A stretch of 43,062 bases of DNA from assembly GCA_031262035.1 (NCBI GenBank), contig JAISIL010000040.1, positions 1 to 43,062 of the forward strand. Reading direction: 5' to 3'. The notes under the pieces are model-generated. The model saw nothing but the letters and a program-made list of their open reading frames with translations. It was not told the origin of the DNA and made no database searches. Position 1 is the stretch's first letter, and every line of letters begins with the position of its first letter. The position numbers and the translations under genes were made by a program. This stretch comes from Spirochaetaceae bacterium (GTDB lineage: Bacteria > Spirochaetota > Spirochaetia > Treponematales > Breznakiellaceae). Shown piece after piece: positions 1,562 through 11,811 of this stretch.

Positions 1562-3463
1562 TTAGCCATTTTCAAACTGACTGTTATACAAGTCTGCATA
1601 AAAACCGCCTTTTGCTAAAAGGTCGTGGTGGTTGCCTTGTTCGACGATATCACCGTCGCGCATCACCAAAATATTATCTGCGTCGCGTATGGTGCTGAGG
1701 CGGTGGGCAATCACAAAACTGGTTCTGTTTTGCATGAGCACATTCATTGCCTTCTGAATAAGCTCCTCGGTGCGGGTGTCTACGCTGGATGTTGCTTCGT
1801 CAAGGATTAAGACAGGGCGGTCGGCCAAGATGGCACGGGCGATAGTGAGAAGTTGTTTCTGCCCCTGGCTTATGTTTGTTGCGTCTTCGTTAAGCTCGGT
1901 ATTGTAGCCTGCCGGTAAGGTTCGGATAAAATGGTCTGCATAGGCGGCCTTTGCGGCATTTATTACCTCCTCGTCTGTTGCCTCCAGGCGGCCGTAACGA
2001 AGGTTCTCCATGATGGTTCCCTGAAAGAGCCAGGTATCCTGCAAAACCATACCGAAGTTTGAACGAAGGTCGGCACGCTTAAATTCACGCAGGTCATGGC
2101 CGTCGAGTTTAATGCTCCCGCTTAGAACATCGTAAAAACGCATAAGAAGTTTCACCATCGTGGTTTTGCCTGCGCCTGTAGGGCCTACTATGGCAATCAT
2201 CTGCCCCGGCTGCACTATTGAATTAAAATTATTGATGATGATTTTATCCGGGTCATAACCAAAGCGCACATTGTCAAAAACCACATGCCCTAAAGCATGG
2301 CCCGGCCTTGGCATCCAGTTATCATCGCCAATAGGTGGGCAGGCGGTTTGCGCAGCAAACTGTTCCGGATGCACAGCATCCCTTTCCTCTTCTTCTTCAA
2401 GAAATTCGAAGATGCGTTCCGCACCGGCGGCCATACTTTGCAGCATGTTAGACACTTGAGCCAATTGGTTTATCGGCTGGGTAAAATTCCGCACATATTG
2501 TATAAATGCTTGTATATCACCAACAGTGATTATTCCACGGAAGGCAAAGATGCCGCCCGAGATTGCCACTACTGCATAGCCTAAATTACCGACAAAGTTC
2601 ATGAAGGGGCCCATCATACCGCCAAAGAACTGGCTTTTCCAGGCCGATTCATAGAGCTCATCATTTATCTTGTCAAAGTTTTCAATTGCCTTTTTTTCAT
2701 AGTTGAACAGTTTTACTACCTGCTGGCCTGCAATAGTTTCTTCTACTTCGCCGTTTACCTCGCCTAATTTGCGCTGCTGGGCCTTAAAGTATTTCTGGCT
2801 GTGCTTCATTATAGTACTTACAATAACAATCGATAGAGGAATGATAATCAGGGTGACAAGCGTCATCAGCACATTAATGGTAAGCATCATAACAAGAACA
2901 CCAAGCATAGTTACTACACTGGTAATCAATTGCACAACGGCCTGGTTAAGGCTCTGACCAAAGGTGTCTACATCGTTTGTAATACGGGATAAGACATCGC
3001 CGACTGTCTTGCTTTCAAAGTATTTCATTGGCATGCGGCCAATCTTTTGGCTAATACCTTTACGCAAATCGTAACAGACCTTTTGCGAAAGGTTTGCCAT
3101 AAGCCAGCCCATAATACCGTTAAACACAGAGGCTATTACATAAAGGCTCATCATAAAAGACAGTATTTGTGCTATGCGAGTAAAATTAATCTCGCCTGTT
3201 TTTGCAATCTTTGCTACCGTGCCTTTATACAGTTCCGTTATGGCAAGGCTCGAAATCTTTGGCCCTATAATATTAAAGATAGTGCTTGCCACTGCCAGCA
3301 CAATAATACATATAAAAGGCCCCTTATAAGATGCAAGAAACCTGAACATTTTTTTAACGGTGCCTTTAAAATCCTTCGGTTTTTCAACAATACGCCCCCG
3401 CATCGGCCCCTGCCGCCTGACAGGCGGCCGCATCGTCTTTGTATCATCACGCATATCACTCAT
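1562..3463 (-). CDS. ABC exporter half-transporter, catalytic subunit of a heterodimer
   Basis: A 633-residue type IV ABC exporter with an N-terminal six-helix membrane domain (about residues 35-330) and a C-terminal ATPase. Visible motifs are Walker A GPTGAGKTT (about 425), signature ISQGQKQ (about 528), Walker B LILDEATSS with the catalytic Glu (about 550), and the switch His in IAHRLST. The signature departs from LSGGQ, as expected for the subunit that completes the inactive ATP site of a heterodimer. The start at 3463 is preferred over an upstream ATG because AAGGAGG lies six bases before it and it overlaps the upstream gene's stop as ATGAGTGA. The substrate is unknown; drugs or lipids are typical for this family. 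Confidence 0.9.
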   Translation of the reverse strand: MSDMRDDTKTMRPPVRRQGPMRGRIVEKPKDFKGTVKKMFRFLASYKGPFICIIVLAVASTIFNIIGPKISSLAITELYKGTVAKIAKTGEINFTRIAQILSFMMSLYVIASVFNGIMGWLMANLSQKVCYDLRKGISQKIGRMPMKYFESKTVGDVLSRITNDVDTFGQSLNQAVVQLITSVVTMLGVLVMMLTINVLMTLVTLIIIPLSIVIVSTIMKHSQKYFKAQQRKLGEVNGEVEETIAGQQVVKLFNYEKKAIENFDKINDELYESAWKSQFFGGMMGPFMNFVGNLGYAVVAISGGIFAFRGIITVGDIQAFIQYVRNFTQPINQLAQVSNMLQSMAAGAERIFEFLEEEEERDAVHPEQFAAQTACPPIGDDNWMPRPGHALGHVVFDNVRFGYDPDKIIINNFNSIVQPGQMIAIVGPTGAGKTTMVKLLMRFYDVLSGSIKLDGHDLREFKRADLRSNFGMVLQDTWLFQGTIMENLRYGRLEATDEEVINAAKAAYADHFIRTLPAGYNTELNEDATNISQGQKQLLTIARAILADRPVLILDEATSSVDTRTEELIQKAMNVLMQNRTSFVIAHRLSTIRDADNILVMRDGDIVEQGNHHDLLAKGGFYADLYNSQFENG

Positions 3464-5501
3464 TGCCGGCCTCCTTGGGGCATTGCCGAAGGCGAACATT
3501 AACGGGCGGAATATATTCCGCCCCTACAGTCTCGCGTGACAATTCTTCCTCGCTTAACTGCGACCTTGCAATCTCCCGATAGGTCTCGCAGCTCTGCATC
3601 AATTCACTGTGTGTCCCCTGCCCCATCATTTTGCCTTCATCCAAAACAATAATATTGTCTGCATGCAGCACGGTTGATATACGCTGGGCTACTATAATCA
3701 CCGTAGCGCTCTTGCATTTTTCCCGGAGCGCATTTCGCAGGGCTGCATCGGTTTTATAATCAAGCGCAGAAAAACTATCATCAAAAACCAGTATCTTAGG
3801 CCTTTTTGCAATGGCCCTTGCTATAGCCAATCGCTGTTTCTGCCCACCCGATACATTGCTTCCCCCTTCTGCAATGGGGCTGTCATATGTCTCAGGCTTT
3901 TCTTCTATAAACTCTGTAGCCTGTGCTATTTCGGCGGCTTCTTTCATCCTTTGTGTGCCATCAGAGGGCGGAATATATTCCGCCCCTACGGCTGCGCCGT
4001 CCTTGGATGCCCTTGCTCCTCCCCCCTCCGGGGGGAGGTTGGGTGGGGGGTTCTCCTGCATCTCCCCCTCCTCTTGTCCAAACATAATATTACTGCCAAT
4101 CGTTCCACTAAACAACACAGCCTTTTGCGGCACAAAACCCATAATGCGGTGCAACTCGTGCAGTGTCATATTACGCACATCAATACCATCAATGCTAACA
4201 CTGCCGCCTGTGGCATCATAAAAACGGGGCAGCAAATTCACCAGGCTCGATTTCCCCGAACCGGTGCTGCCTATAATTGCTGTAATTTCACCCGGCTGTG
4301 CAGTAAAACTGATATGTTCAATTGCATCTGCCGGCATATCGGTTTCCGTTTCGGTTCCAGTTTCTTTTAATGCCGGGTAGTGAAATGATACATCGTTGTA
4401 TTGCACAATACCCTGCCAGGCTGGTGTGCCATCGGGTTTCACCCCCTGTAGGGGCGTTGCGCGCAACGCCCCTACAGGGTCCTGGATTATCGGTTCTGTA
4501 TTGCACACTTCTTCAATCCGGCCCACGGCAACATTGGCACGGGGAAGCATGATAGAAATCATACTTATCATCATAAAGGACATAACAATCATCATGGCAT
4601 AGGTCATAAAGGCAATAAGGTCGCCAACCAGTAAATCACCTAAATCAATTCGCTTTGCGGCAAACCAGATAATCATACACATGATGCCGTTCATTAAAAG
4701 CATCATTCCCGGATTCATAAAGGACATGACACGATTGGTAAAGCGCTGTGTCCGCATTAAATCAGTGTTTGCATCATCAAAACGCTTTTCTTCAAACTGC
4801 TCGCGCGAAAAGGCACGAATTACAGAAAGACCGGTAAGTATTTCACGGCTTACCTGATTCACCTTATCGACCATTTTTTGCAGCAGCCGAAACTTGGGCA
4901 TTGTCAAACTGAACATAGTTACTACCAGCACCGAAATAAGGGCAACAGCAATCACAATAATCCAGGCAAGGCCGGTCTTTTTACCGGCAACCATTACAAT
5001 GCCGCCAATCCCCATCACCGGCGAAAAAAGCACCATTCGTAAAATCAGAACGATAACAAATTGAATCTGCTGTATATCATTTGTGTTCCGGGTAATAAGG
5101 CTGGCTGTCGTAAAATAATCAAGCTCCTTACCGGAAAACGAAAGGGTCTTCAGATAGGTCTTTCGCCTGAGGTCCCGCCCAATCTTCGCCGCAGTCCGGC
5201 TTGCCAGAAAACCGACAACAATAGCCACCCCAAGGCCGAGAAGAGCAATGAGCAGCATCTTGAGCCCCTGCCGCCACATATAGGAAATCTGAATCTGCGC
5301 TAATTCTTCCTTGGTATGAGCCGCCTTCACCGCAGCCACCGTGGCAGCATCCCCTTCGATGCCCCCATTCATGATGCCCACATCTACAATGCTGCTTGTA
5401 ATATTCGGCAAAGCAAGATCGCAAAAAGCCTGCACCACAAGAAGGGCCATAATGACCACCACAACCGGCACAGACCCCTTCAAATACTTAAAAACTCCCA
5501 C
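3456..5501 (-). CDS. ABC exporter half-transporter, degenerate-site subunit, with in-frame repeat insertions
   Basis: A 681-residue partner of the downstream exporter gene. Walker A is GSTGSGKSS (about 410) and the signature is VSGGQKQ (about 548). The catalytic Glu after Walker B is Asp (LVFDDSFSALD), and the switch His is Gln (VAQRIST). This is the pattern of the non-hydrolysing subunit in heterodimers such as TM287/288. The protein is longer than usual because three palindromic repeats lie in frame: about residues 341-352 (GALRATP), within 477-513 (VGAEYIPP, with a proline-rich stretch), and near the C-terminus (VGAEYIPP again). The start is GTG at 5501 behind aaggaataaaa. Confidence 0.9.
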   Translation of the reverse strand: MGVFKYLKGSVPVVVVIMALLVVQAFCDLALPNITSSIVDVGIMNGGIEGDAATVAAVKAAHTKEELAQIQISYMWRQGLKMLLIALLGLGVAIVVGFLASRTAAKIGRDLRRKTYLKTLSFSGKELDYFTTASLITRNTNDIQQIQFVIVLILRMVLFSPVMGIGGIVMVAGKKTGLAWIIVIAVALISVLVVTMFSLTMPKFRLLQKMVDKVNQVSREILTGLSVIRAFSREQFEEKRFDDANTDLMRTQRFTNRVMSFMNPGMMLLMNGIMCMIIWFAAKRIDLGDLLVGDLIAFMTYAMMIVMSFMMISMISIMLPRANVAVGRIEEVCNTEPIIQDPVGALRATPLQGVKPDGTPAWQGIVQYNDVSFHYPALKETGTETETDMPADAIEHISFTAQPGEITAIIGSTGSGKSSLVNLLPRFYDATGGSVSIDGIDVRNMTLHELHRIMGFVPQKAVLFSGTIGSNIMFGQEEGEMQENPPPNLPPEGGGARASKDGAAVGAEYIPPSDGTQRMKEAAEIAQATEFIEEKPETYDSPIAEGGSNVSGGQKQRLAIARAIAKRPKILVFDDSFSALDYKTDAALRNALREKCKSATVIIVAQRISTVLHADNIIVLDEGKMMGQGTHSELMQSCETYREIARSQLSEEELSRETVGAEYIPPVNVRLRQCPKEAGNE
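3504..3529. repeat. Family B palindrome inside the ABC gene, copy 1
   Basis: The sequence gggcggaatatattccgccc is followed by ctacag. It is read on the minus strand as T-V-G-A-E-Y-I-P-P near the C-terminus of the exporter subunit. Confidence 0.8.
3966..3989. repeat. Family B palindrome inside the ABC gene, copy 2
   Basis: Identical to the copy at 3504 over its 24 bases and read in the same frame (V-G-A-E-Y-I-P-P). It sits in the helical part of the nucleotide-binding domain, next to a G/C-rich repeat at about 4017-4053 that encodes N-P-P-P-N-L-P-P-E-G-G-G. Confidence 0.8.
4444..4479. repeat. Family B palindrome inside the ABC gene, copy 3
   Basis: A perfect 36-base palindrome with 18-base arms ending in ctacaggg. 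On the minus strand it is read as P-V-G-A-L-R-A-T-P-L-Q-G, in the same V-G-A frame as the other two copies. It lies in the linker between the membrane and ATPase domains. Confidence 0.85.
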
Positions 5502-5889: not shown

Positions 5890-6366
5890 ATGGGTGTTCT
5901 TCGTTATCAGTTGCAAAGCCTCTTTACCAATATTCTTTTTATTTCCGCACTGTCAAGTTGGTTTGTTGCCCAGGTTATCAAGGCGCTTATTGTTATTATT
6001 CAGGGGCGTTGGCGCAGTGCAGGCGATATTATGACAACCCTTGCCTGGCGAACCGGGGGTATGCCTTCAAGCCATGCCTCTATGGTTTCGGGCCTTACCA
6101 CAGCGGTGGCCATTAAAGACGGTATCTCATCAGATTTATTTGTAGTCATGTTATTTATGGCGCTGGTTATTATCCGCGACGCCCTTGGAGTGCGTCGTTC
6201 TTCGGGCCTGCAAGCCAGGACGCTGAACCAAATGGGGCAATACCTTGCAGACACTGATGATTATGAGTATCAGCCATTAAAGGAAGTGCTTGGCCATAAA
6301 CCTATGGAAGTTGTTGTCGGTTGTCTGCTTGGCATTATTATTGCAAGTGCTTTAGCCTTTTTATAA
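5890..6366 (+). CDS. Divergent PAP2-family membrane protein (DUF212, YuiD-like)
   Basis: A 158-residue membrane protein. The motif GGMPSSHASMVSGL (about residues 56-69) and the later RRSSGLQARTLNQM segment match the divergent PAP2/DUF212 family, whose members are thought to be membrane phosphatases with unassigned substrates. Helices lie at about 10-35, 60-80, 85-105 and 140-158. The ATG has no ribosome-binding site, and the promoter lies just upstream, so the message is probably nearly leaderless. It is followed nine bases later by the 481-residue membrane protein. Confidence 0.85.
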   Translation: MGVLRYQLQSLFTNILFISALSSWFVAQVIKALIVIIQGRWRSAGDIMTTLAWRTGGMPSSHASMVSGLTTAVAIKDGISSDLFVVMLFMALVIIRDALGVRRSSGLQARTLNQMGQYLADTDDYEYQPLKEVLGHKPMEVVVGCLLGIIIASALAFL

Positions 6367-6375
6367 ACGGACGGA

Positions 6376-7821
6376 ATGAAACATTCTTTTTTACTGAAAA
6401 ACGGTGTCCTACTTGCATCTCTTGTGGTAAATCTTGTGCTTACCCTGCTTTTTTGGCCGGCACATCAGGGTTTTCTGCCCCCTTCCGGCCCCGATTCGGC
6501 GCAGGCGGCGCTTCTTTCCTTTGATAAAACGGAAAATGATGAAGTTTTAACCGATACATTAAGCCTTGCCGGCTTTCATATTGTGTCTTTGTCCGGGCAA
6601 ACAGTCTATCTGGATGATTTTAGCCGTGTTTTAGAGCTCAGCCCCGAGTATTTTAGCCAAAGAATGATAGCCGAAGACCCGCGACGGGACGGATATGCCG
6701 AAAAACTTATCAATTTTTTTGTTTCAGAGGGGCAAAGGCGCCTGTATATTATTCCGGCAGAGGGCCAAAGCCTTTTGGTAGATGATGTCAGCGAAACCCT
6801 GAAAAACTTGAGCCTTCCCCCTTTTACCCTCCAGTTTTTCCGTGAAAACATTCCCCTGCGTTATGTCAGTGAGGCACATACCACGCCTCCCTGGCTCAAC
6901 CTGATTGTTTTTCTCCTTATTGCAGGGCTTTTTATCTATTTTACCAAGATTACCCCCAGCTTAATCATGCTGCTCCTTGGCCTTTTTCCCCTTGCCGTGC
7001 AGGGAGGAGCCGGGCTGGCCCTTGCGGCAATCCTTTTTGGCGGGGGTTTTAGCGCCCTGGGGATAGCGGCAAACTATTTCAAGTATCGTCAAAAACCGGC
7101 GCCTGTCCAATGCGGCTTTGCCATTGCCTCTTTGCTTGCCTATATATCTTCTATTATTGTGCAGGGCCTTGTTTTGCCGGGCATTTGTGCTTTTATTCTT
7201 GCGCTGGGTTTTCCGCTTCTGCTCTTATTCAGCAATTCGGGGAACAAAACCGGCTTTCGGCAATTTGAGCCGGTTTCAATCCGGAAGTATAAGAGCAAAA
7301 AGATTTCTCCCCTTAAGGGTGAGGGGCTTATCGCTGTTCTTGCCCTGCTCCTGGCCCTTGTTGCGACCAATATGCAGGGAACAGTGCGCGAGGCTTCGGT
7401 GCCCGACAACGCCGATGAGGCGGCCATCCGGGAATTTGCCGGCCGCGAGGCGGCGCGGATTCCTCATTTTGATGATTTTATCGCTCATGCAGAATATCAG
7501 CATAACTTCTCGTTTCGTGCTCCCAAAAGGGACGGCTCTGTTCGCCAGGGCTATTTCGATTACAGCCTTGCAAGCGATGGGCTTATTTCGCAGTCGGCCA
7601 TTCCGGTAGCTTATGTGCAGCGGGTAGAAAGCGACGTTCTGCAAACTCAATTTTACCCACTGGAACAATTGCGCAATTTTCTGCATAATTATACTAGTGC
7701 CCAAGAGGCGGCAGCTACAGAGGCTGTGGAAGTGCAGAGCGAGGCCGAGCCTCAAAAACCAAAAGATTCTGCGGTGTATCAGCTTGCTCTTGTGCTGGCG
7801 ATTATGGCATTTTTTTTATGA
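6376..7821 (+). CDS. Uncharacterised polytopic membrane protein coupled to rnfC
   Basis: A 481-residue protein that I do not recognise. It has an N-terminal helix (about 8-28), a non-membrane domain (about 30-170), a cluster of hydrophobic helices (about 173-300), another helix (about 315-335), a soluble domain (about 340-465) and a C-terminal helix (467-481). The stop overlaps the rnfC start as ATGA, so translation is coupled and a role with the Rnf-like complex is likely. It has no Cys-rich ferredoxin motif, so it is not a disguised RnfB. A short palindrome-like stretch encodes S-P-L-K-G-E-G at about residue 313. Confidence 0.7.
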   Translation: MKHSFLLKNGVLLASLVVNLVLTLLFWPAHQGFLPPSGPDSAQAALLSFDKTENDEVLTDTLSLAGFHIVSLSGQTVYLDDFSRVLELSPEYFSQRMIAEDPRRDGYAEKLINFFVSEGQRRLYIIPAEGQSLLVDDVSETLKNLSLPPFTLQFFRENIPLRYVSEAHTTPPWLNLIVFLLIAGLFIYFTKITPSLIMLLLGLFPLAVQGGAGLALAAILFGGGFSALGIAANYFKYRQKPAPVQCGFAIASLLAYISSIIVQGLVLPGICAFILALGFPLLLLFSNSGNKTGFRQFEPVSIRKYKSKKISPLKGEGLIAVLALLLALVATNMQGTVREASVPDNADEAAIREFAGREAARIPHFDDFIAHAEYQHNFSFRAPKRDGSVRQGYFDYSLASDGLISQSAIPVAYVQRVESDVLQTQFYPLEQLRNFLHNYTSAQEAAATEAVEVQSEAEPQKPKDSAVYQLALVLAIMAFFL

Positions 7822-9146
7822 AATCATATAGTTTTCCGAAAGGCGGTTTACAGTTTAACGACCCTTTTGCACCCTCGGGCGAAAAGAGCTCTATTGCCCA
7901 TCTTCCCGGCCTTTTTCTTGTCTCGCTCGACCAGCATTCCGGCAGGGAAGCGATTCCTCTTGTTGAACATGGCAAATCGATAGCCGAGGGCGAGCTTGTC
8001 GGGAAGAAGAACGGGCTTTTCTCGGCTAACATTCACTCGCCGCTCCCCGGCAGGGTTCTTCGCACGGTGGAATGGCTTGAAGAAGATGGCGAAGAAATGC
8101 TCGGCCTCCTTGTCAGGCTGGAAGGTTCTTTTAATCGCCTGGGGAAACGGGAAGATTACTATACCTGGGAGGACCTGAAGCCTCAGGAGATTCGTAATAT
8201 AGTAGAAGATTTAGGCATTGTCGAGATGGAAGGCATCGGGCAGCCGGTGTCTGATATGTTCGATGAAGACAGAGAAAGAGCCGGCGGGAAGCCCCTGACC
8301 CTGGTGCTGCGCTGTGTGTTCGACGACCCCTGGCTTGCCGCCGATTATACGGTGTGCAGCGAGAGGCTTCTTGCCGTTGCAGAAGGGCTTGCCATTACCT
8401 TCAAGATGATTCAGGCTGAAAGAATTATTTTGACCATCTCTACAAAAGAGAAGAAGCTGACCGGGAACCTCGAGTCGGCTATTGCCCCTTATGGCCTTCC
8501 CTATTCTATCTGCTATGTGGGGAACCGCTATCCTCAGAGAAACCGAAGGGAACTTGAGATAGCCCTGAACGCTTTTGCTAAAGATGAAGAATTCGAGGCG
8601 GCAGGGTATTTTATTATAAGCCCTTCGACAAGCGCTGCAATTCGTGATGCAGTAAAACTACACAAGCCGATTATTGAACGCTATGTTGCAATCGGCGGTT
8701 CGGGGGTGCGAAAGCCGCAGGTGCTCAAGGCCCGTATAGGCATGCGCATTGCAGACTTGTTCGATGAATGCGGCGGGCTTCATGAAAAAACCAGATTATT
8801 TACCGTCGGTTCGCCTTACAAAGGACGCAAAGTAAAGCTTGATGAACCGGTAACAAAAACAACCAATGCCGTCTGTGCCTACATAGAAGAAGGCCTGGAA
8901 AGAAAGGCCTCTATCTGTGCCGGCTGTGGCGAGTGCAGAACGGTTTGTCCGGTTGGGCTCGACCCGGAACGGCTTTACAAGCACATTTTGGCAGAGCCCA
9001 TAGTGGATTCAGGCGAACTGGCTGATTATGGCAGCAGAAACAATCTCTGCCACGGATGCGGCTGCTGCGATTTGGTCTGTCCTTCAAGGCTGCCTTTAAG
9101 CGATGTCATTGTTCGCGGTGCTGCAAAAAGGGGCGCCCATGACTAA
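7818..9146 (+). CDS. rnfC: RnfC-like subunit with degenerate NADH/FMN site
   Basis: A 442-residue protein. The N-terminal barrel-sandwich region matches RnfC (GGLQFNDPFAP, IPLVEHGKSIAEG, SANIHSPLPGRV). Two complete [4Fe-4S] motifs are present: CAGCGECRTVCP (about 366) and CHGCGCCDLVCP (about 410). In classical RnfC the Rossmann-like region has a Gly-rich GGAGFPT loop and an NGAECEP motif for FMN/NADH. Here the equivalent positions read EGIGQPV (about 140) and RCVFDDP (about 165), so nucleotide binding is doubtful. It belongs to the CDGEA cluster, which normally forms a ferredoxin:NAD oxidoreductase ion pump. Confidence 0.85.
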   Translation: MKSYSFPKGGLQFNDPFAPSGEKSSIAHLPGLFLVSLDQHSGREAIPLVEHGKSIAEGELVGKKNGLFSANIHSPLPGRVLRTVEWLEEDGEEMLGLLVRLEGSFNRLGKREDYYTWEDLKPQEIRNIVEDLGIVEMEGIGQPVSDMFDEDRERAGGKPLTLVLRCVFDDPWLAADYTVCSERLLAVAEGLAITFKMIQAERIILTISTKEKKLTGNLESAIAPYGLPYSICYVGNRYPQRNRRELEIALNAFAKDEEFEAAGYFIISPSTSAAIRDAVKLHKPIIERYVAIGGSGVRKPQVLKARIGMRIADLFDECGGLHEKTRLFTVGSPYKGRKVKLDEPVTKTTNAVCAYIEEGLERKASICAGCGECRTVCPVGLDPERLYKHILAEPIVDSGELADYGSRNNLCHGCGCCDLVCPSRLPLSDVIVRGAAKRGAHD

Positions 9147-10098
9147 GTCTATACCATTACTGTATCAGAAGCCGCAGGTGAATTTAGGCAGCCGTTCTGT
9201 GCGAAACAATTGGATGGTAGCGGCTGTATGCTTTGCCTGTGTTATGCAGTCCGCTATTTTCGATTCTGCAAGGTCGCTTGCTATCGCCTTTGTTTCCTGT
9301 GCAGGGGCTATTGCCAGTGAATTTTTTATATCGCTTTCAAGAAAGACCTATCATATAGCAGATGGAAGCGCCGTCTGCACGGCATTGATTTTTACCCTCT
9401 TGCTGCCCAATAATACAAACCCTGTTGTTGCAATTCTCGGTTCTGCCTTTGCCATTGCCGTAGTCAAGCAGTGTTTTGGCGGGCTTGGTTCAAACTGGCT
9501 CAACCCGGCATTGGGCGGCTGGCTCTTTGTCAGAATCAGTTGGCCCGGTTTATTTAGCGAAGTTTCTGAATTTAATCCCGCTCTCCTATCGAGCGCTTCA
9601 ATTAGCCTGAATGATTTTGTGAATTTCAGTAACCTGCATGTTCTCTCTTACTTTAATGCAGAAATTTCTGCAAATGATATGGCCCTTCTTTTTCAAAATA
9701 ACTTAGCCCTTATTGCAGACCGCGGGGTCTTTGTCTTTATCATTGGCAGCATTGTCTTGCTTGCAACAAGAAGCACCCGTGCCTGGCGTGCATTGATTTT
9801 TCTGGCGTCGTATATACTAACTATGCTTATCTCGGGCGAGACAAACCTTTTTTATTATCTTTTTTCAGGGGGGCTTTTGCTTATTGCTTTTGTCATAACT
9901 GCCGACCCTGCAACCGGGGCAAAATCAATTCCGGGCATTATTGCACAGGCACTACTCACCGGGGTGCTGGCTTTTGTTTTCAGGTTTTTTGGAAAGAATG
10001 AATTAGGTATTATATATGCAGCGCTTTTAGTCAATGGCCTTATGCCCCTGATTCGCAGCCTGGAAGACAAGCTGCTTTACAGGAGGGCCTTGTGTTAA
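9139..10098 (+). CDS. rnfD: RnfD-like membrane subunit lacking the flavinylation motif
   Basis: A 319-residue polytopic protein. Family landmarks are LLLPNNTNP, VKQCFGGLGSNWLNPALGG and the C-terminal ITADPATGAK and NGLMPLI. Classical RnfD/NqrB carries an S/T-G-A-T motif after the FGGLG/NPA segment, and its Thr takes covalent FMN. The corresponding region here (about residues 140-190) has no such motif. The start at 9139 overlaps the rnfC stop as ATGACTAA; an in-frame start at 9103 would overlap rnfC by 44 bases and is less likely. Confidence 0.85.
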   Translation: MTKSIPLLYQKPQVNLGSRSVRNNWMVAAVCFACVMQSAIFDSARSLAIAFVSCAGAIASEFFISLSRKTYHIADGSAVCTALIFTLLLPNNTNPVVAILGSAFAIAVVKQCFGGLGSNWLNPALGGWLFVRISWPGLFSEVSEFNPALLSSASISLNDFVNFSNLHVLSYFNAEISANDMALLFQNNLALIADRGVFVFIIGSIVLLATRSTRAWRALIFLASYILTMLISGETNLFYYLFSGGLLLIAFVITADPATGAKSIPGIIAQALLTGVLAFVFRFFGKNELGIIYAALLVNGLMPLIRSLEDKLLYRRALC

Positions 10099-10589
10099 AG
10101 CTACCGCAGATTAAGCTCAATATAAAGATAAACACAGCAAGCCCGGTGTTTAAGTCCTGCATCTTTGCCGCCTGGTTAATCATTCCTGCATTGATTACGT
10201 TTGTTTTGTGGTATAACACTGAAACTGTGCGAAGCAGGCATGTCATGGACAACATTAATTATATCATTGCGAACGAAGGTGAAGGTTTTATACTGACAGG
10301 TGAAATAGAAGATAAAAGCAATGAATGGGAACGCTGGTATACCACCGATTCAGGCGAGAAAGCAGTGATGTTTTCGCTTATTGACAGTGCCAATGCATCG
10401 CCGGTGCTCTGTCTTATTGCAAATGATACCGGTGAGATACAAAAAACTATTCCCCTGAGCACAAACGGGAAAAGGCTCCTTTCGCGTATTTCACCTGAAG
10501 AATTTATCTTTCAGATACAGCGTGTAAAAAAGGCATGGGCTAAAGACAATATTAAAGAAGAGATTGAAGAAGAGGTGGAAGAACAATAA
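10092..10589 (+). CDS. rnfG: Short RnfG-position protein without FMN attachment motif
   Basis: A 165-residue protein in the rnfG position (between D and E). It has one N-terminal helix (about 22-42), an extracytoplasmic domain and an acidic Glu-rich tail. RnfG is usually around 200 residues with an FMN_bind domain ending in S-G-A-T; neither the motif nor its usual Gly-rich context is visible. The assignment rests mainly on position and topology. The start is GTG at 10092, five bases after AGGAGG, and it overlaps the rnfD stop. Confidence 0.55.
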   Translation: MLKLPQIKLNIKINTASPVFKSCIFAAWLIIPALITFVLWYNTETVRSRHVMDNINYIIANEGEGFILTGEIEDKSNEWERWYTTDSGEKAVMFSLIDSANASPVLCLIANDTGEIQKTIPLSTNGKRLLSRISPEEFIFQIQRVKKAWAKDNIKEEIEEEVEEQ

Positions 10590-11212
10590 TGGAAAAGAAT
10601 GTTATCTGGACTAAGAATCTTATTACCTCAACTTTTGCATGCACAGCCCTTATGGTTATGTCTACAAGTAGGACTGCCTTTGCACTGGTTACTATTGGTG
10701 CACTTGTATGGGTGTATATGCTTAGTGCACTGGTCTGTTTTTTTGCACGGCCTATCCTGCCTGAAAAAGTACAAAAGTATGTGCACATTTTTTTAGCGGC
10801 ATTCTTTTCCTGCCTGTATCAGTTTTTTCTTTTTTTGCTCAACCCGATTCTTGCAATGGAAACAAGTCTTTTTGTCTTTCTTACACCGGTCGGCCTTATT
10901 TCTTCTGCTGTATTACGGGATGCAAGAAAATATACCGACCAAAATGCTTTCTTTCTGCCGCTCTGGGAATGCCTGGCCCTTTCGATGATGATACTGGGTA
11001 TTGCTTTAATACGGGAACCTTTAGGCTATGGTTCACTTTCCGTGCCTGGTAGTGTTTATGGTATAGTAGAAATTATAAGCAGCGAAGACGGCCCCTATTT
11101 CCCTGTTCAATTTGCTGCACAGGCTTCAGGCGCCTTATTGATTTTAGGTTTTGCCTATGCTATTTATCGTAGTGTGCAAAACCAGAAAAGCCAGGAGGAG
11201 GATGCACAATGA
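10589..11212 (+). CDS. rnfE: RnfE-like membrane subunit, one iron-sulfur Cys replaced
   Basis: A 207-residue six-helix protein of the RnfE/NqrD family. In the family, one Cys in each half binds an intramembrane [2Fe-2S] cluster. The first is kept (Cys18, in TSTFACTAL). The second, normally in T-N-C-A-I-L, aligns with Ser106 in ISSAVL. The start overlaps the rnfG stop as TAATG, showing tight coupling. The C-terminal region (IREPLGYGSLS, then hydrophobic) is typical of the family. Confidence 0.8.
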   Translation: MEKNVIWTKNLITSTFACTALMVMSTSRTAFALVTIGALVWVYMLSALVCFFARPILPEKVQKYVHIFLAAFFSCLYQFFLFLLNPILAMETSLFVFLTPVGLISSAVLRDARKYTDQNAFFLPLWECLALSMMILGIALIREPLGYGSLSVPGSVYGIVEIISSEDGPYFPVQFAAQASGALLILGFAYAIYRSVQNQKSQEEDAQ

Positions 11213-11811
11213 GTATACTCTACTATGCAAGTTTTGCTTTTTTTGCCGCAGTTCCACTGAACCTGATTATAGAACTTGGTTTTGGCCTTGACAATGCAAC
11301 CGATAAAGAAGAAGCGCCTTTTAAAGCACAGTTATTGCAGTATGGCTGTTTGTTTGTCGAGATAGGCGTCTTGTGGTGTTTCTTTACCTATCTGCTCTCG
11401 CCGCTCGGCCTTGGTTTTTTTAAGTACTTCCTTCTTTTTCCTGCCTCGGCCTGTCTTTCAATTGGAGTGAATAGTCTTTTAAAGATTGCGCTTCCTGAAT
11501 ATTATCAAAAAAATTGTTTAAACTTATTGATTAACCGTTTTAACAGCGCTTTTGACGGCATTATCATAGCGGCGATATTTTTTACCCTGCGTTTTGCAAC
11601 AAATATTCTTGAAGCGCTTTGCCTGACTTTCGGTTTTTGCTTTGGCCTCTTTTTTGCCTTTTATATCTTACGGGCAATCCGCAGAAAATCGCTTGTAGAA
11701 TTGGTTCCGACGCCTATTCAGGGGATACCGCTTCTGCTTATTTCAGGCGGCCTTCTTTCAATGATATTTTCTTCGATATCAGATTTAATTTTTAGAATAA
11801 TGGGAATGTAG
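11209..11811 (+). CDS. rnfA: RnfA-like membrane subunit lacking both iron-sulfur Cys
   Basis: A 200-residue six-helix protein of the RnfA/NqrE family, starting at an ATGA overlap with rnfE behind ggaggagg. Classical RnfA has G-I-C-P in helix 1 and T-T-N-C-A-V-L-G in helix 4. Here the first region (residues 18-30, NLIIELGFGLDNA) has no Cys, and the second aligns as N-S-A-F-D-G with Ser113 in place of Cys. No rnfB follows; the next gene, 20 bases on, is thyX. Confidence 0.75.
   Translation: MSILYYASFAFFAAVPLNLIIELGFGLDNATDKEEAPFKAQLLQYGCLFVEIGVLWCFFTYLLSPLGLGFFKYFLLFPASACLSIGVNSLLKIALPEYYQKNCLNLLINRFNSAFDGIIIAAIFFTLRFATNILEALCLTFGFCFGLFFAFYILRAIRRKSLVELVPTPIQGIPLLLISGGLLSMIFSSISDLIFRIMGM

Follow-up and report, generated by a model that had tools for sequence, protein, structure and literature searches.

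A 43,062-nucleotide stretch of DNA from a Spirochaetaceae bacterium (contig JAISIL010000040.1, here C85 and referred to as the window; genome of 3.07 Mb, 99% complete) carries a cluster of genes related to those of Rnf, the ferredoxin:NAD+ (nicotinamide adenine dinucleotide) ion pump. Judging from the encoded proteins, this cluster has lost the sites for every transmembrane electron carrier: RnfB, the four cysteines of RnfA and RnfE that hold an intramembrane iron-sulfur (Fe-S) cluster, and the covalent flavin mononucleotide (FMN) of both RnfG and RnfD. Retained under purifying selection are the RnfA-RnfE-RnfD scaffold, a shortened RnfG, the riboflavin/Na+ residues of RnfD, an RnfC with two [4Fe-4S] motifs and two extra membrane proteins. 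These features indicate that the complex is very probably not a working canonical Rnf pump. We use the label Rnf2 for the divergent spirochaete Rnf paralogue clusters to which it belongs.

Cofactor sites of the Rnf2 proteins

Seven plus-strand genes, the majority of them overlapping, occupy positions 5890-11811 and encode DUF212, U481, RnfC, RnfD, an RnfG-like protein, RnfE and RnfA (Table 1). An earlier note on this DNA had described an Rnf-like cluster with mostly replaced membrane ligands, and the cluster is real: rnfC-D-G-E-A, at 7818-11811, have intact frames and tight overlaps. RnfC, RnfD, RnfE and RnfA were each named by Pfam or NCBIfam, every NCBIfam score lying under its cut-off (200.6 vs 246 bits for rnfC, 124 vs 207 for rnfD, 22 vs 213 for rnfE and 37 vs 229 for rnfA). 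The matches to PF03116, PF02508 and TIGR01943 establish the presence of the homologous membrane core RnfA, RnfD and RnfE, and the tree agrees.

In the Rnf complex of C. tetanomorphum the invariant cysteines are RnfA 25 and 113 and RnfE 26 and 109, which lie where four half-helices kink (PMC9588780). We compared 21 clusters of the window's family with 18 classical clusters, among them E. coli Rsx, and with 10 other Rnf2 clusters, locating the ligand columns by hhalign profile-profile alignment and by MAFFT with bridging sequences. Cysteine occupied all four positions in 18/18 classical clusters and none in the window, where the residues were Asp28 and Gly117 in RnfA, and Ala20 and Leu103 in RnfE. 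The two methods agreed on the second RnfA and both RnfE positions against classical profiles, and on all four against an order-level profile. Within the family, cysteine was found in 0/21 clusters at the first RnfA position (Arg, Gly, Gln and others), 0/21 at the second (mainly Gly), 0/20 at the first RnfE position (mainly Gly) and 9/21 at the second, which otherwise was Phe in 8. The complete sets of cysteines in the window are 47, 57, 82, 103, 138 and 144 in RnfA, and 18, 50, 75 and 128 in RnfE; as only RnfE Cys18 lies near any ligand position, the loss stands whatever the details of the alignment, and a misalignment concealing a ligand cysteine was rejected. Deep divergence leaves single residue assignments uncertain by a few residues, which does not affect the absence of cysteine.

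The loss is thus more complete than first claimed. The earlier note regarded Cys18 of RnfE as the one ligand kept, and RnfE Ser106 and RnfA Ser113 as two parallel Cys-to-Ser changes; these residues stand two, three and four positions away from their respective ligand columns. The hhalign results and the bridging sequences led us to discard Cys-to-Ser replacement: the ligand positions hold Ala, Gly, Leu and Asp in the window, and chiefly Gly, Arg, Phe or Cys in the family. Placing Ser113 at a ligand position is understandable, since a pairwise phmmer alignment with 9eri_A also brings it to the cysteine by opening a 4-residue gap; we rejected it, as sequences intermediate between both Rnf types give no support. 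Relatives do share the loss of ligands, and Ser106 is conserved in 18/21 family members, yet outside the ligand column.

Further losses, none of them part of the earlier claim, concern RnfB, the covalent FMN sites and the FMN motif of RnfC. No RnfB was found at the window locus or in its genome, which gave merely weak PF04060 matches in frames of 690 and 724 aa. The flavinylated Thr of RnfD was present in 17/17 classical clusters, 5/10 other Rnf2 clusters and 0/19 family proteins; in the window its loop is shortened, the motif is missing and the Thr column is a gap, and the FMN-lining Arg has become Trp in 17/19 family proteins. The residues of the riboflavin/Na+ site described for C. tetanomorphum RnfD, Asn124 and Asp248 (PMC9588780), are retained, the first as Asn in 19/19 family proteins and the second as Asp in 15 and Glu in 4.

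The Pfam domain FMN_bind was absent from all 23 RnfG-like members, and the window protein also lacks the flavinylation motif. Its AlphaFold model (mean predicted local distance difference test, pLDDT, of 91) gave RnfG chains as the top four VIA-align matches, with Z of 5.6-6.2, modest values as they fall below 8, against 4.6 for the next; Foldseek alone placed RnfG only 50th. At the bridging locus L082 RnfG still contains AGATES. On account of fold, gene position and this bridge, we consider the protein a shortened RnfG. The window's genome contains ApbE together with four FMN_bind stretches outside the Rnf2 cluster, which are therefore other possible substrates for it. Another genome (G131, 89% complete, with locus L062 and others) showed 13 FMN_bind matches and no ApbE match.

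In RnfC, EMEGxGxP and RCVFDDPW stand where the classical protein has the FMN/NAD motifs GxGGAxFPT and AECEP; VFDDPW was seen in 18/19 family proteins and AECEPY in nearly all of 12 classical ones. The eight [4Fe-4S] cysteines are all but invariant, both among the Spirochaetia loci and in a sample of 64 sequences; as this sample was picked by RnfC motifs, the conservation of VFDDPW within it is circular. The family also conserves four extra cysteines (Cys166, 180, 318 and 416), a trait that classical RnfC does not share; they could constitute a new metal site. Cys166 adjoins the replaced AECEP motif and Cys180 follows shortly after.

In Rnf, electrons pass through RnfB, the RnfA/E cluster, the FMN of RnfG, the FMN and then the riboflavin of RnfD, the RnfC clusters and the RnfC FMN to NAD (PMC9588780, PMC12174285). 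As the sites up to the FMN of RnfD are missing in Rnf2, along with the RnfC FMN motif, this route is excluded unless other ligands are used; the RnfD riboflavin and the RnfC clusters could remain. A canonical pump drawing its metal site from other residues and its electron donor from a gene elsewhere would be in line with the preserved architecture and gene order, and the authors of work on T. pallidum have proposed a noncanonical, flavodoxin-fed RNF pump (PMC7512555). We nevertheless judge it highly improbable: Gly, Ala and Leu at the ligand positions are not metal ligands and vary among relatives, the flavin sites of RnfD and RnfG are lost too, and RnfB is absent from both the window's genome and that of T. 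pallidum.

Descent and selective constraint

Concatenated trees united all Rnf2 clusters in one clade. The basal loci L158 and L127, together with L082 and L084, have all four cysteines and RnfB; the RnfD Thr is missing from L084, and the first ferredoxin motif from the RnfB frame of L127. Three cysteines and RnfB are present in L083 and L086, and L085 has neither any ligand cysteine (0/4) nor RnfB. The family of T. pallidum, that of the window and three others fall in a large clade (FastTree support 0.986), where neither an intact cysteine quartet nor a complete RnfB occurs; a truncated RnfB-like ferredoxin persists in some members. By tree pattern alone, this distribution fits one ancestral loss in the large clade and one in L085. 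Cysteines at the ligand positions, which the earlier note had named as a refutation, are found in basal members of the same clade, although not in the window, and this sets the direction of change from Cys-bearing to Cys-less. Rnf2 is shown to be a spirochaete Rnf paralogue descended from a complete Rnf cluster.

The named loci of the family (f1) belong to termite-gut Treponema/Spirochaetaceae genomes and to Breznakiella homolactica, which makes Breznakiellaceae the probable affiliation of the window. In the cultured B. homolactica RmG30 (NZ_CP067089.2) the cluster lies at about 0.64 Mb. Matches to PF03116 occurred in 195/200 family genomes, mostly two each and, where examined, one in a classical and one in a divergent cluster. 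The window's genome has a single PF03116 and a single PF02508 match, both at the Rnf2 locus, and hence no classical Rnf; the second, classical cluster that the earlier note had proposed to look for was not found. Incompleteness of metagenome-assembled genomes could conceal classical clusters in some cases, hardly in one that is 99% complete. The arrangement DUF212-U481-RnfC-D-G-E-A recurs in termite spirochaetes of the Breznakiellaceae type as well as in other Spirochaetia; a single-sequence RnfE scan of the genome contigs gave no relatives, and the family RnfC alignment found them. A genome of 1,139,633 bp that we take as T. pallidum (G209) has only the Rnf2 type, with Asp, Gly, Gly and Arg at the ligand positions, and neither RnfB nor U481 was found in it; TP0151 is reported at position 174174 in T. 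pallidum (PMC7162541). A third type of rnf D-G-E-A cluster, distinct from the other two, is seen at loci L088, L098, L128, L129 and L130; all four cysteines are present in some of these genomes, and no RnfC was recognised within the stretches examined.

For the closest pairs within one genus of 10-11 genomes, the ratio of nonsynonymous to synonymous substitution rates (dN/dS) was 0.13-0.19 for rnfC, 0.16-0.22 for rnfD, 0.15-0.25 for rnfE (one pair 0.40), 0.21-0.26 for rnfA and about 0.3 for U481; the RnfG-like gene is under weaker constraint (0.4-0.9). Purifying selection among close relatives implies that Rnf2 is not decaying. Family-specific invariant residues unseen in classical Rnf include RnfD Asp54, Arg144, Asp206-Arg207, Arg226, Lys274, Arg318 and Glu321 (counted from an upstream start at 9103) and RnfE Arg28 and Ser106; RnfC likewise has new ones. 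Genes open in dozens of genera, low dN/dS and new invariants support a changed function, as the earlier note had argued. Loss of cofactor sites would also be expected if a duplicated Rnf operon were decaying, but this origin is scarcely credible in view of the same three observations, and because the cluster is the sole Rnf both in the window's genome and in T. pallidum.

Gene layout and neighbouring genes

Table 1. Features of the Rnf2 cluster in the window
Feature	Position	Strand	Basis
Membrane protein of the DUF212 (divergent PAP2-like) family, heading the conserved cluster	5890-6366	+	Pfam PF02681 E 7e-42; same place in most Rnf2 loci
U481, orphan membrane protein tied to Rnf2 cluster	6376-7821	+	Co-occurrence across genomes
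RnfC homologue: N-terminal barrel, NuoF-like domain, two [4Fe-4S] motifs	7818-9146	+	PF13375, PF01512, PF10531, Fer4; phmmer 7zc6_C E 5e-38
RnfC VFDDPW, in place of classical AECEPY motif	8316-8333	+	Family vs classical alignment
RnfC first [4Fe-4S] motif, Cys367, 370, 373, 377	8916-8948	+	Invariant except one truncated open reading frame (ORF)
RnfC second [4Fe-4S] motif, Cys411, 414, 417, 421	9048-9080	+	Invariant, family and classical
RnfD homologue, 320 aa	9136-10098	+	PF03116 E 4e-52
RnfD Asn123 = C. tetanomorphum Asn124, riboflavin/Na+ site	9502-9504	+	Alignment; site function from PMC9588780
RnfD Asp257 = C. tetanomorphum Asp248	9904-9906	+	Alignment; PMC9588780
RnfG-like, 165 aa, shortened	10092-10589	+	AlphaFold fold match to RnfG
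RnfE homologue without ligand Cys	10589-11212	+	PF02508 E 4e-8; hhalign and MAFFT
RnfE Ala20 = first RnfE ligand position (C. tetanomorphum Cys26)	10646-10648	+	hhalign, MAFFT
RnfE Leu103 = second RnfE ligand position (Cys109)	10895-10897	+	hhalign, MAFFT
RnfA homologue without ligand Cys	11209-11811	+	TIGR01943 E 4e-9, under cut-off; phmmer 9eri_A E 2e-5
RnfA Asp28 = first RnfA ligand position (Cys25)	11290-11292	+	hhalign vs order-level profile, MAFFT
RnfA Gly117 = second RnfA ligand position (Cys113)	11557-11559	+	hhalign, MAFFT

U481 gave no match in Pfam, NCBIfam, PDB sequences or Foldseek, and the missing fold match says little because the model has a pLDDT of 65. Its predicted layout is an alpha/beta domain near residues 44-164 followed by several helices. 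Among the family genomes, 160/200 encode it (42/45 when only good ones are counted); outside the family it reaches Treponemataceae-type genomes and, more weakly, further Spirochaetia families. At locus L153 (G331) DUF212 and U481 are adjacent with no rnf gene detected within the stretch examined, which suggests that the pair can occur separately from the Rnf2 core.

Outside the cluster, a minus-strand ORF for an ATP-binding cassette (ABC) exporter (3456-5501) contains a low-complexity in-frame stretch, NPPPNLPPEGGGARASKDGAAVGAEYIPP, at about 3950-4055, ahead of the signature motif; within it is a palindrome around GGCGGAATATATTCCGCC, with a second copy near 3505 in the same gene.

Possible function of Rnf2 and its relation to known systems

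Rnf2 resembles Rnf (RnfABCDGE) in its homologous C, D, E and A subunits and shortened G, in the order C-D-G-E-A, in the RnfC [4Fe-4S] motifs and in the Asn/Asp riboflavin-Na+ site of RnfD. In contrast to Rnf, the window cluster lacks RnfB, the RnfA/E cysteine quartet and the RnfD and RnfG flavinylation sites, its RnfC FMN/NAD motif is replaced, and two extra genes, DUF212 and U481, lie upstream. The Na+-NQR complex (NqrABCDEF) shares the membrane-core family; however, NqrA is without the RnfC clusters that Rnf2 retains, and Rnf2 has neither the covalent FMN sites nor the Fe-S sites of Nqr. Pfam named no NqrF-like gene among those of the cluster, the genome as a whole not having been searched for NqrF. 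Two-subunit Nqr/Rnf-like complexes also have a membrane subunit without the RnfD/NqrB flavinylation Thr (PMC8238504, PMC11334425), but as described they keep a flavinylated RnfG/NqrC-like subunit and a PF00175 domain and have no RnfA/E, whereas Rnf2 keeps RnfA/E and a G subunit without the FMN domain. The window RnfD is not fused to the NAD-binding domain PF00175, Pfam giving PF03116 alone in the 320-aa protein. The 'noncanonical RNF' of T. pallidum (TP0151, that is RnfD, and its neighbours) belongs to the same clade, with the same gene order, 0/4 ligand cysteines and no RnfB; it differs in the absence of U481, and its function is merely proposed in the literature.

RnfD has an ammonium/urea-transporter fold, and RnfA/E have been likened to alternating-access symporters with their closure next to the cluster (PMC12174285, PMC9588780). 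These resemblances lead us to favour a conduit: RnfD and/or the RnfA/E hourglass would form a path for an ion or solute, with mostly small or polar residues in place of the metal cluster at the narrowest point of the hourglass, and the cytoplasmic RnfC clusters, beside the riboflavin site, would sense the redox state of ferredoxin or flavin and gate the path. Such a redox-gated conduit may operate throughout the class in spirochaetes, including the 'RNF' of T. pallidum, a proposal we put forward only tentatively; for the combined statement of lost redox wiring and conduit mechanism, we settle on an evenly balanced compromise.

Several points weigh against this combined explanation. The two intact [4Fe-4S] motifs of RnfC and the retained riboflavin site argue for some residual electron transfer; truncated RnfB-like ferredoxins lie beside some dismantled clusters (L077, L125, L161, L164-L167); and cysteine persists at RnfE position 2 in the nine family members mentioned above and, in two Treponemataceae-type genomes of 2.8 Mb, at position 1. 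Transport by Rnf2 is deduced rather than directly evidenced, and the idea of an RnfA/E pore comes solely from homology and position.

The main rival to the conduit is a rewired, short electron route on the cytoplasmic side, in which the RnfC clusters, the new Cys166/180/318/416 and a non-covalent RnfD riboflavin would pass electrons to an acceptor in or at the membrane, perhaps via U481. The retained motifs and riboflavin-site residues and the family-wide conservation of the four extra cysteines speak for it, and a non-covalent flavin has already been proposed for two-subunit Nqr/Rnf-like complexes lacking the RnfD flavinylation site (PMC11334425). We regard this route as rather unlikely, given that it has no electron entry subunit and no known acceptor, that the RnfC FMN/NAD motif is gone and that no cofactor motif was recognised in U481. 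Loss of all transmembrane redox sites, the strongly constrained charged residues of RnfD and its transporter fold (PMC12174285) would suit a plain non-redox transporter or scaffold with purely structural RnfC clusters; the near invariance of the eight RnfC cysteines makes this improbable.

A full-text literature search, which did not cover the original T. pallidum flavinylation analysis (10.1128/mBio.00519-15), returned no description of the missing ligands. In published work the RnfA/E cysteines count as invariant, and the membrane core is seen as an essential redox module (PMC9588780, PMC12174285). A 2026 paper on Breznakiellaceae takes Rnf as an ordinary pump (PMC13067680), a reading that may concern the classical cluster, and the T. 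pallidum RNF has been treated as a flavin-dependent noncanonical pump proposed to yield extra ATP (PMC7512555). Our results bear on that hypothesis, as the only Rnf cluster of T. pallidum lacks RnfB, the RnfA/E cysteines and the RnfD flavin site.

With the core conserved in a lineage that has dispensed with the redox sites, scaffold and redox chemistry can be viewed apart; nature has in effect set up a test of which parts are responsible for ion movement. Should the redox-gated conduit prove true, a class-wide family may have abandoned transmembrane electron transfer. Annotations of an 'Rnf complex' in Treponema-type genomes should specify which of the two clusters is meant, since Rnf2 probably works on a principle other than that of the annotated ion pump, in organisms ranging from termite-gut spirochaetes to the syphilis bacterium.

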